Positions 20,009 to 23,500 of a stretch of DNA of 64,000 bases are shown one piece after another. A program made the position numbers and the translations under genes. Every line of letters starts with the position of its first letter. The first letter of the stretch is position 1. The DNA is from Phycisphaeraceae bacterium (lineage in GTDB: Bacteria > Planctomycetota > Phycisphaerae > Phycisphaerales > Phycisphaeraceae): positions 124,001 to 188,000 of the forward strand of contig JADZCR010000002.1 in assembly GCA_020851465.1 (NCBI GenBank), given 5' to 3'. The notes below the pieces were generated by a model. That model did not search any database, was not told where the DNA came from, and saw only the letters and a program-made list of their open reading frames with translations.

Positions 20009-22888
20009 TCACGAAACTCCGATGGCTTTGGCGTCACGATCTGACAACATTCCCTCATCCGACCGTTGTTTCACCGTGCCGTCACGTTTCCAGGAGCGTT
20101 CGCAACGAGGTTCCTGGCGCAAGTCAATCGCCTTCACTCCATCGACGTTGCTTTCCCTCGTAAAGCGACTGATGCCGCAGAGGTCCGCCAGGTCGATTGG
20201 TTCGAAGTCCTTCATGGCGGCGTCCGCCGGGACAACAAGGCCGATGTCGAGCGGATTATCAATGCCCCCCTGTGACCGCGCTTCTTCGATTGCTTTCAAC
20301 CACGTCGAACGTGCCGCAATTACCGCCGGCCAGTTGGGATGAACTGTCCGTACCGCCGCTTCGGGGAATAGTTCCAGATGCACGGTGCCGTCCGCGTGGC
20401 CGGGCTGCATCCGCCAGGCTTCATCGGCTGTGTGCGGAAGAATCGGTGCAACGAGCCGGATCAGCGCGCCGGCGATCTCGTGCATCGCGGTCTGTGAGCG
20501 GCGGCGACGCGGGCCGTTAGCCGGATCGCAATACATGCGATCCTTGGTCGCAGCCAGATAAATAGCTGAGAGCGTCTCATTGCAGAAGTTAAACACTGCC
20601 TCGTGAACCGCGCGGAAATCAAACCGCTCATATCCCGCACGCACCGTCTTCACCAGCACGCTCAGCTCACCCAGTGCCCAGGCGTCGAGAGATGTCGCAT
20701 CTGCAGGCGACCAGACGTGAGAGTTGCTGCGCGGGTCGAAGTCGTACAAGTTGCTCAGCAGGTACTTGATTGTGTTGCGGACCTTCCGATACTCCTCACC
20801 CGCGAGCTTGAAGAACTCCGGGTCAACCTTGATGTCATTATCCGTGTTGATCGAGGAGACCCACCAGCGGCAGACATCTGCTCCGTGATCCTTGAGCAGC
20901 GTCTCGACCTCGAGCGCATTGCCCAATGACTTGCTCATTTTCTTGCCGTCTTTGTCCACCATGAATCCATGCGTGAGTACCGCACGGTAAGGCGACTCGC
21001 CCCGAGCAGCGACAGCCGGCAGGAGTGACGCCTGAAACCAGCCGCGATGCTGATCGCTGCCTTCGAGGTACAGGTCCGTGAGCGGGCCGGTCGCCCAATC
21101 ATGACCCAGGCTGCGCTCCTCGATCACCGCAGCCCACGATGTCCCCGAGTCAAACCACACGTCGAAGATGTCGCTGCCCTTGACCAGCCGCTTGCGGTCG
21201 AATGATGCTTCGCGGATCCATGCGGGTGCGTCCGCATCCTGAGCCGGGTCATAGGCAGCCAGTAATTCCTCAGCTGACAGCTTGAACCACGCATCGGATC
21301 CGTGCTGTGAGATCGCCTTCGCCACCGCGCGGACTGACGAGTGCGTGAGCAGGCAATCTTTTGATCCCTCACGAAAGAAGGCAGGTATGGGTAATCCCCA
21401 CGATCGCTGCCGACTGATGCACCAGTCGGGGCGGGACTCAAGCATGCCGCGCATCCGGTTACGGCCCCAGTCGGGAAAGAAGCGAACTCGATCAGCGGCG
21501 GCCATTGCTCGGTTGCGCAAGGTGTCCTCGGCGGTGCCATTGATGGTGAACGGTTTGTCCACGCCGACGAACCACTGTTCCGTAGCGCGGAAGATCACCG
21601 GAGTCTTGCTCCGCCAATCGTGCGGGTAGCTGTGGGTGAAGCGATGGGCGAAGAACAGGTGCTTCGACTCGCGGAGTTTGTTGACGACCAGATCGTTCGC
21701 CTTCCAGACATCGATATCTGCTCCCTCGGCGCGCAGCCACTGGGGAACCGTGTCGTCAAACGTGCCGTCTTCCTTCACCGGGCAGTAGATCGGCAGGCCG
21801 GCTCGCAGTCCGGTCTGATAGTCCTCGACACCATGCCCCGGCGCGGTATGAACGAGACCCGTGCCGTCATCGAGCGTGACGTAATCGGCGGGGACGACCG
21901 GCGAGGTGCGATCGATAAACGGATGGCGGTAGGACACCCCGGCCTGCACGAGTTGATTACCCAGGCAGCGGCCCAGATTTTCGATCCCTGTCGCCCCGCC
22001 GGAGCCAAGCACCTTGTCGGCCAGCGTGTCCGCAAGGACGGCAAGGCGCGTTTCATTTTGAACCGTGAAACGATACAGGCCGTACTCCGCACGCGGAGCG
22101 ACCGCTACCGCGAGATTGGCAGGAAGCGTCCACGGCGTCGTCGTCCAGATCATGAGACTCACCGGCCGGCCGGCGGGACAATTCAGCGACGGCGGAAGCA
22201 TCGTCGCATCGACGACCTCAAACATGACGTAGATGCTCGTATCCTCGCGGTCCTGATACTCCAATTCCGCATCAGCCAGCGCGGTCTGATTGGCGATCGA
22301 CCAATGCACCGGCTTAAGCGCGCGATAGACAAGCCCTCGCTCCACCAGATCAGCAAAGACTCCCAGCACTCGCTCCTCGTACCGCGGAGTCATGGTCAGA
22401 TACGGATGCTCATAGTCCGCCAGCGTGAGCAATCGCTGCATCTGGCCGGCTTGAAGTTTCACGTACTTTTCCGCATAGGCCTGACATTTACGCCGAATCT
22501 GAAACGGCTCCATCTGACGCGCTTTGTCACCCAGTTCAGCGATGACCTTGTGCTCGATCGGCAGGCCGTGGCAGTCCCATCCCGGCACGTACGGACAATC
22601 GAAGCCCTCCATCGTTTTCGAACGAACGACGATGTCCTTGAGAACCTTATTGAGCAGGTGCCCCAGGTGAATCGAGCCGTTCGCATACGGCGGGCCATCG
22701 TGAAAAACATACTTTCCTCTCGATGCAGCCGTTCCGCGGGCAGCCCGGATTTTTTCATAGAGCTTCATCTGCTCCCACCGCTTCATTGATGCGGGTTCGT
22801 TCTGCACAAGGTTGGCCTTCATGGGAAAGGCGGTCTGCGGTAGATTCAGCGTGGATTTATAGGAGCGTTTCTCAGCAGGCTGGGTCAT
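20009..22888 (-). CDS. ileS: isoleucyl-tRNA synthetase
   Basis: Class I aminoacyl-tRNA synthetase charging tRNA-Ile. It has the HIGH motif as HLGH (74-77) within [18 protein letters not shown], the [12 protein letters not shown] block, an editing domain with [11 protein letters not shown], and the KMSKS loop near residue 650. Length (959) is normal. The bacterial C-terminal zinc-binding finger is degenerate: of the four expected cysteines only the first remains (CERSWK, later LSDRDAKAI). Its 5' region carries an Ile/Thr leader peptide and attenuator, so expression is probably tied to charged tRNA-Ile supply. Confidence 0.97.
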
Positions 22889-22942: not shown

Positions 22943-22969
22943 AAAAAAGCCCCACCGATCGGCAGGGCT
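22943..22969 (-). terminator. intrinsic terminator in the ileS leader (attenuator)
   Basis: On the minus strand a 9-bp stem (one G-U and one U-G pair included) with a GATC loop is directly followed by six T residues (plus-strand A run 22943-22948). It lies about 55 nt upstream of ileS and downstream of the leader peptide stop, where no other minus-strand gene needs a terminator. This placement marks it as an attenuator. Confidence 0.8.
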
Positions 22970-23018
22970 TCTGGATTCCGGTGCAGCAATCGCAGCCCTA
23001 CCGACTATGGGTGCTGGT
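22948..23018 (-). promoter_or_regulatory. mutually exclusive antiterminator/terminator segments upstream of ileS
   Basis: Four segments in the order of classical amino-acid attenuators. Segment 1 (CAGCACCC) directly follows the Ile/Thr codons. Segment 2, TCGGTAGGGCT (22994-23004), spans the peptide stop codon. Segment 3, AGCCCTGCCGA, occupies 22959-22969. Segment 4, TCGGTGGGGCT (22948-22958), precedes the T run. Segments 2 and 4 differ by one base and each can pair with segment 3, so 2:3 (antiterminator, 11 bp with one G-U) excludes 3:4 (terminator). A ribosome stalled at the Ile codons would leave segment 2 free; one reaching the stop codon would cover it. Confidence 0.75.
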
Positions 23019-23066
23019 AATGGTAATGGTAATGATGATGCGGAAAATCGTACGGTTGGGAGGCAT
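22998..23066 (-). CDS. Ile/Thr-rich leader peptide of the ileS attenuator
   Basis: A 22-codon ORF (ATG at 23066, TAG at 22998-23000) upstream of ileS. The peptide starts MPPNRT and has a core [13 protein letters not shown], with six Ile and five Thr codons in all; three Ile codons are consecutive (ATC ATC ATT). A modest GAGAG lies 4 nt before the ATG. It sits between a good promoter and a terminator and its stop codon overlaps the antiterminator strand. It resembles the E. coli thr leader peptide in composition, but the downstream gene is ileS, so Ile codons are the likely sensors. The peptide itself probably has no function after translation. Confidence 0.75.
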
Positions 23067-23086
23067 GCGTCTCTCTTTCGGGGGCG

Positions 23087-23114
23087 ATTATAAATGGAGG
23101 ATCGGTCGGAGCAA
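23087..23114 (-). promoter_or_regulatory. promoter of the ileS leader
   Basis: Minus-strand TTGCTC (23109-23114), a 16-bp spacer and a perfect TATAAT (23087-23092). The -10 ends 20 nt before the leader peptide ATG, leaving a short 5' leader with GAGAG. Confidence 0.65.
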
Positions 23115-23152: not shown

Positions 23153-23500
23153 TTATCGCACGGGGCGGGAAACAGACTCGACTTTTCGGCGCAGCGGCTT
23201 CCCGGCTGCTTCTTCCTCGTCCTCAACCCGCTGTATGACCTCAACCGGTATCGCCCACAAAGCCAGCGCCAACAGCAGAGGCGCGATAACCATGTCATCG
23301 ATCCAGCCGGCGAAGGGGATGATGTCGGGCACAAAGTCAATCGGCGAGAGAATGTAAATAACCGCCATCAGGGCAACGAGCCGACTCCACCACGGTGTGC
23401 GTGAATCGAACATTGACCTTGCGTACAGCCGGATCCGCGGCCAGAGCATCAGCAGCGATCCGCCGCGGCGCAGGCGTCGAGTTTTGGAAAAGAATCCCAC
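23153..23500 (-). CDS. YkvA/DUF1232-family membrane protein
   Basis: A 115-residue protein with the DUF1232 core: a hydrophobic segment running into YILSPIDFVPDIIPFAGWIDD (residues about 49-69), then a second hydrophobic stretch (MVIAPLLLALALWAI). It has basic ends and a Glu-rich segment after the second helix. The function of this family is unknown. The start is a GTG at 23500 with TACCAT exactly 6 nt upstream, suggesting leaderless translation. It precedes the ileS leader promoter on the same strand. Confidence 0.8.
   Translation of the reverse strand: MGFFSKTRRLRRGGSLLMLWPRIRLYARSMFDSRTPWWSRLVALMAVIYILSPIDFVPDIIPFAGWIDDMVIAPLLLALALWAIPVEVIQRVEDEEEAAGKPLRRKVESVSRPVR

Follow-up and report, generated by a model that had tools for sequence, protein, structure and literature searches.

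The 64-kb window analyzed here (the whole stretch of DNA under study, 64,000 nt from a 3.4-Mb Phycisphaeraceae genome) contains an ileS gene, encoding isoleucyl-tRNA synthetase, that is preceded by a short Ile-rich reading frame and a putative terminator hairpin. An initial annotation read this arrangement as amino acid attenuation. The locus therefore raises the questions of whether the leader senses the charging of tRNA-Ile and whether ileS is the only gene equipped with it.

Organization of the ileS Leader

The leader lies on the minus strand (23114-22943), and direct reading located every described part at its coordinates (Table 1). The putative promoter is present as claimed, with TTGCTC and TATAAT elements 16 bp apart on that strand; 26 nt separate its -10 element from the leader start codon. 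The reading frame that follows has 22 codons, with six Ile and five Thr codons as originally counted, and its TAG stop does fall within segment 2. Both proposed alternative pairings were confirmed base for base. Segment 2 pairs with segment 3 in an 11-bp helix containing one G-U pair, and segment 3 also pairs with segment 4, which differs from segment 2 by a single base, as had been stated. The terminator with its six T is likewise present, at approximately -17 kcal/mol for the 3:4 hairpin, but its stem does not comprise all of segments 3 and 4: because the two are adjacent, their innermost bases become the GATC loop, and the stem measures 9 to 11 bp with flanking A/T pairs included. Minimum-free-energy folds of the window leader also predict an extra anti-terminator helix, in which codons 18-20 can pair with segment 4 if they are free of a ribosome. 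The downstream gene starts 54 nt past the T run and is identified as ileS by TIGR00392 (840.8 bits against a cut-off of 621.4). Folding of the plus strand of the region, opposite to the feature, gave nothing unusual.

Table 1. Coordinates of leader features (window positions unless a genome or locus is named)
Feature	Coordinates	Strand	Basis or remark
-35 element, TTGCTC	23109-23114	-	Putative; direct reading
-10 element, TATAAT, 16-bp spacer from -35	23087-23092	-	Putative; direct reading
Leader peptide ORF, ATG 23066 to TAG 22998	22998-23066	-	Direct reading; Ile-rich homologues in ~25 family members
Codons 18-20, AGCACCCAT	23007-23015	-	Minimum-free-energy folds
Segment 2, TCGGTAGGGCT, 5' arm of anti-terminator, contains TAG stop	22994-23004	-	
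Segment 3, AGCCCTGCCGA, shared arm	22959-22969	-	
Segment 4, TCGGTGGGGCT, 3' arm of terminator	22948-22958	-	
Intrinsic terminator, hairpin GAAGCCCTGCC-GATC-GGTGGGGCTTT plus six-T run (22948-22943)	22943-22971	-	Predicted
ileS, isoleucyl-tRNA synthetase, 959 aa, ATG at 22888	20009-22888	-	TIGR00392
cimA leader of the window genome	G000:C6:804588-804677 (L172:2989-3078, -)		R1 match (covariance model, see text)

Conservation at ileS in the Family and Class

The family set comprised 51 genomes, 50 of which gave an ileS match, with at most 72% identity. Upstream regions were read, and the same arrangement was found at ~25 of ~50 family genes. It consists of a 15- to 22-codon ORF, in which 3-7 codons specify Ile and the stop lies in or beside segment 2; after a further 25-32 nt come CCCTGCC, a loop of 3-6 nt, GGCRGGG, and five to eight T. 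The stop is the TAG of CGGTAGGGC, except in L116 and L117, which use TGA just 5' of GGCAGGGC. The recurrence of Ile codons, of the stop within segment 2, and of both pairings in ~25 family members supports the reading as Ile attenuation. The codon cluster had been described as one of Ile and Thr; the Ile codons recur in relatives but the Thr codons are not conserved, which points to Ile as the sensed amino acid. In most relatives, only 12-16 nt separate a TATACT or TATAAT element from the start codon, compared with 26 nt in the window; with a -10 element this close, the mRNA that encodes the peptide is probably leaderless in most of them.

Leaders of this kind also occur at ileS in two other families of the class (L162 and L166). 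Presence on the ileS tree is clustered but patchy, with 8 changes against a shuffled mean of 12.3 (3 of 500 shuffles were as low). Relatives without the element, which the initial annotation had named as evidence against its reading, make up about half of the family, but they lack the element as a unit: where the attenuator is missing from ileS, the whole of it is absent and no contradictory parts are left over.

Individual loci differ in what stands upstream of ileS. Two members of one genus can be compared over ≤300 nt: L009 has an intact, divergent attenuator and L019 a decayed remnant without a terminator, which suggests a recent loss in L019. A terminator remnant is seen at ileS in L112. 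L024 and L039 have a tRNA-like sequence, apparently tRNA-Leu, ~75-160 nt 5' of ileS, at the position where relatives carry the attenuator. Phycisphaeraceae-like ileS genes (58-61% identity) from which the attenuator is absent were found in L036, L040, L044, L046, and others; the MAGs that hold them are labeled Myxococcales, Deltaproteobacteria, or Dadabacteria, so that either gene transfer or mislabeled bins may be involved.

Recurrence of the Leader Upstream of cimA

A covariance model (R1) was built from 23 ileS leaders only and searched over the 51 family genomes, and the places found were assigned by comparison with known gene positions. At E ≤ 1e-6, the model identified 58 places: the 23 ileS leaders of the training set, 34 at cimA, and 1 at aspS. 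Among the strong family matches that were out of sample, 34 of 35 thus lie directly 5' of cimA, and the window genome's own cimA is included. Weak matches to R1 or R2 spanning only model positions ~38 to 92 were left out of these counts; they resemble ordinary terminators and were dropped as attenuator candidates. The cimA leader of the window genome reads GTG-NLALITIMIIGSNP-TGA, followed by CCGGCAGGGCC, ACCCTGCC, GGCAGGGT, and seven T, and the gene behind it is a citramalate synthase (TIGR00977, 634 bits against a cut-off of 450). Citramalate synthase carries out the step that commits pyruvate to Ile, so that cimA and ileS both serve the supply of isoleucine. L003, the nearest relative in the set, has no ileS attenuator, yet the cimA copy is present there (L152). 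A class-wide search returned more cimA-like leaders in other families, where cimA was named from protein starts.

Leucine Codons at leuA and an Amino Acid-Blind Scan

Leu-rich leader peptides, for example MSTNSPNPRAGVTQHGQLNQLGLLLLLCAG, precede leuA in most family members (L286-L315). The switching core is shifted at this gene, with CCGGATAGGGC as segment 2, GCCCTGTCCGG as segment 3, and CCGACAGGG as segment 4. The leuA leader of the window genome encodes MTRFPQSIRNLSAALSLRLTLRG-TAG and keeps the pairing (L308 ~1281-1440, +); it fails the strict scan described below because only four T stand behind the hairpin. The initial annotation missed the copies at cimA and leuA.

The scan used no amino acid information. 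To count as a complete attenuator, a locus had to combine a terminator with an energy ≤ -11 and an ORF 10-35 codons long whose stop is contacted by a 2:3 duplex (≤ -14). Such attenuators were found at 22 of 48 ileS, 24 of 34 cimA, and 19 of 29 leuA loci; dinucleotide shuffles yielded none in 696, and stray matches numbered ~10 over 1.24 Mb of strand sequence from the loci. Within the 64-kb window, the ileS leader ranked first (-41.2, with the next at -34.2). The strict thresholds miss ileS in L026, L116, and L117 as well as the cimA and leuA leaders of the window genome; these were picked up by the model or by visual inspection. The peptides selected by the scan contain 24.9% Ile at ileS, 26.5% at cimA, and 4.4% at leuA, and their Leu shares are 4.6%, 4.0%, and 28.3%, respectively. 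This tracking of the gene by codon identity is the strongest evidence obtained for amino acid-responsive attenuation, and the exchange of Ile codons (ileS and cimA) for Leu codons (leuA) amounts to a control of the attenuation model performed in nature. The genes ilvB, ilvD, and pheS were also considered and rejected as family targets, with 1 of 90 loci passing the blind scan (ilvB, 1 of 30; ilvD and pheS, 0 of 30 each).

Geometry and Predicted Folding

In 14 of 23 ileS leaders, the last Ile codon starts 19 nt 5' of GGTAGGG. This distance is close to what a ribosome covers past its A site and is just enough to free segment 2. Folds were predicted on the assumption that a ribosome reaches 13 nt downstream. 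With the ribosome at the stop, the terminator formed in all 24 leaders. When the ribosome was moved to the last Ile codon, 22 of 23 leaders formed 2:3 ahead of the appearance of segment 4, and this never happened with the ribosome at the stop. At equilibrium, a ribosome on the last Ile codon left the terminator favored in 15 of 24 leaders, so the switch would depend on 2:3 forming first. For the window leader, the probability of 2:3 is 0.98 even at equilibrium when the ribosome is stalled at codons 7-14, and with a stall at codon 16 equilibrium favors the terminator, so that the outcome there would have to be decided by 2:3 arising earlier.

Ribosome-free folding gave the terminator in 19 of 24 leaders; the window leader instead favors the anti-terminator because its codons 18-20 also pair with segment 4, and read-through is predicted for it when transcription is uncoupled and no ribosome is present. 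A protector helix 1:2 is for this reason not claimed for the window leader; in a swap test of 1:2, cognate energies were only slightly better than swapped ones (P = 0.024). The leaders combine an ORF with codons matched to the downstream gene, a conserved intrinsic terminator before that gene, and an anti-terminator that excludes the terminator and has its 5' arm masked when a ribosome is placed at the stop.

Covariation of the Pairings

The initial annotation proposed alignment of ileS upstream regions as a check on whether the pairings covary. For 3:4, covariation across ileS leaders is moderate. The seven-base core of 2:3 is nearly invariant, and pair counts on the 23 ileS leaders cannot for that reason prove covariation of 2:3. 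Invariance of the core is expected if the stop has to lie in segment 2 and segment 3 has to be complementary to both of its partners. Pairing that is kept while the sequence changes is seen instead in the pair flanking the core, in the outer terminator pair, and in the leuA leaders. With ileS and cimA combined, the flanking pair alternates between C-G and G-C and is paired in 40 of 66 cases, against a shuffled mean of 27.0, with 0 of 5,000 shuffles as high; these shuffles ignore relatedness, and the P values are to be read as guides. The outer 3:4 pair is kept in 64 of 66 as A-T, G-C, C-G, or G-T. L005 and L009 retain both pairings with a different sequence, segments 3 and 4 are altered together at cimA in L174 and L175, and at leuA (GGATAGGG / CCCTGTCC / GGACAGGG) all three segments have changed in concert.

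Proposed Mechanism and Alternatives

In silico, the parts of the leader, their conservation, the match between codons and gene, the geometry, and the folding are as a ribosome-mediated transcription attenuator requires, and we consider it very probable that such a device, sensing charged tRNA-Ile, precedes ileS. We infer that the promoter is used, the leader translated, and transcription terminated in vivo, and that the system responds to Ile. Transcription from the promoter (23114-23087) and leader translation would be coupled. With ample Ile-tRNA, the ribosome would reach the TAG and cover segment 2, allowing 3:4 to pair, and RNA polymerase would terminate at the run of six U, short of ileS. 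Under a shortage of Ile-tRNA, the ribosome would stall on the Ile codons, the last of which starts 19 nt from the GGTAGGG core, and leave segment 2 free to pair with segment 3 once the latter emerges, and ileS would be transcribed. The same switch would operate in the window genome before cimA, with Ile codons, and before leuA, with Leu codons. One signal would in this way govern both the production of Ile through citramalate and the loading of Ile onto tRNA. If correct, the mechanism implies that transcription and translation are closely coupled in a phylum with a long-debated cell plan, and it can be tested in cultured Poriferisphaera corsica, which has all three switches.

The leader might instead answer to translation in general, or to reinitiation, and not to Ile: the peptide would boost translation of ileS, or any slow translation would lift termination. 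Leader genes near structural genes may aid reinitiation (PMC4833913), and leaderless starts appear common here. However, the leader stop lies ~110 nt from ileS with the terminator in between, a longer distance of the kind that the same study itself requires for attenuators, and the difference between Ile content at ileS and cimA and Leu content at leuA speaks for amino acid specificity; we regard this explanation as improbable. Still less credit can be given to the proposal that the hairpin terminates the upstream gene (a minus-strand ORF ending at 23153) and that the Ile-rich ORF is a by-product of an ATT/ACC repeat. Intergenic terminators are common and the leader does contain a short TTACCA repeat, but the putative promoter sits between the upstream gene and the hairpin, the element recurs in varied upstream contexts and also at cimA and leuA, and neither a stop within segment 2 nor codons matched to the gene would be expected. 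A T-box, or another riboswitch binding a ligand or tRNA as at ileS of Firmicutes and Actinobacteria, is highly improbable even though ileS is a known T-box target (PMC1262725): no Rfam family reached its gathering threshold in the window and six related loci, no conserved structured domain extends beyond 2:3:4, and the reading frame and its Ile codons are conserved. A functional microprotein with an incidental hairpin has a similarly slight chance of being correct, since the ORF, although kept over many genera, retains mainly its Ile codons and terminal Arg-stop and varies freely elsewhere (15-22 codons), and segments 2, 3, and 4 are conserved outside it.

With attenuation by charged tRNA-Ile as the preferred reading of the ileS leader, a single origin of the leaders at all three genes can be put forward only tentatively, as a possibility that we judge somewhat doubtful. 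One ancestral Phycisphaerae cassette would have been copied between genes and retargeted by codon exchange. Under this joint proposal, the cassette would have a near-fixed core (GGTAGGG / CCCTGCC / GGCRGGG), a stop in segment 2, and a mostly leaderless peptide, and it would carry Ile codons at cimA and ileS, Leu codons at leuA (with the shifted core), and perhaps Asn codons at aspS in two genomes. If this is true, the regulon would expand through duplication of a module followed by small codon changes.

Relation to Known Attenuators

Among the classical peptide-leader attenuators, that of pheST acts on synthetase genes. Like the E. coli thr, ilvGMEDA, and pheST systems (Rfam Thr_leader, RF00506, and Phe_leader, RF01859), the leaders described here have a peptide rich in the cognate amino acid, a stop at segment 2, 2:3 and 3:4 helices that exclude each other, and a terminator with a U run; unlike them, they involve ileS, another phylum, and another sequence, and the peptide start is mostly leaderless in relatives. 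Thr_leader (23 bits) and Phe_leader (22.5 bits), the nearest sub-threshold families, did not reach the Rfam gathering score of 55 in either case.

In Streptomyces, peptide attenuators are known at leuS and trpS, with reports for alaS and thrS as well, and are often leaderless (PMC1262725, PMC8079986). They resemble the present leaders as mostly leaderless peptide attenuators on synthetase genes, but include no ileS or cimA case, and several have no recognized U-run terminator, a feature that the present leaders possess and conserve. The T-boxes found at ileS in Actinobacteria and Firmicutes (PMC1262725) regulate the same gene in response to the same signal, the charging state of tRNA-Ile, but there the RNA binds tRNA directly and no leader peptide is involved. 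Leader peptides also precede leuA and ilvB in Actinobacteria (PMC1262725, PMC8079986, PMC11857589), with Leu- or branched-chain-rich sequences before branched-chain pathway genes as in the present case. Actinobacterial leuA leaders often lack a terminator, whereas those of Phycisphaeraceae have segments 2, 3, and 4 and a U run, and in contrast to Actinobacteria, ilvB of this family is without an attenuator (1 of 30 in the blind scan).

The suggestion that ileS attenuation of this kind had not been described is plausible and not proven: the open literature shows other synthetase peptide attenuators and ileS T-boxes only, and a search of open-licence publications turned up no attenuator of the peptide type at either ileS or cimA, nor any from Phycisphaerae. 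Prior art may be present in Lopatovskaya et al. 2010 (Mol Biol 44:128), which deals with attenuation of amino acid and aminoacyl-tRNA operons. The mechanism is classical; what appears new is the choice of targets (ileS and cimA), the phylum, and the switching core that the leaders share, and classical amino acid attenuation is extended to Planctomycetota with comparative evidence from a whole family.

Divergent and Isolated Leaders

Two ileS leaders outside the main set (L063:48-202 and L073:2784-2921) have Ile-rich ORFs and a different, larger terminator (GGCCCCG...CGGGGCC); in L073, AAGCGGG past the stop could pair with CCCGCTT of the terminator. The same architecture occurs ~170-220 nt 5' of aspS in L222:1808-1893 and L225:2050-2139, with the Asn-containing peptides MRYPFGAPGGNGHNNPSPSR and MLTAPTNANRQDHTPQGR. 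As a general target, aspS was rejected, the element being present in only 2 of 31 family aspS upstream regions read. Two weaker finds, each single, come from farther afield. The distant genome L273 has a Leu-rich leader at leuA, and in another class, L278:1501-1599 (-) carries, 5' of ilvD, a peptide with Leu, Val, and Ile codons (MFGLDISLVLIISSPEGMR), a stop within CGGTAGGC, and a terminator, which together look like a branched-chain attenuator.
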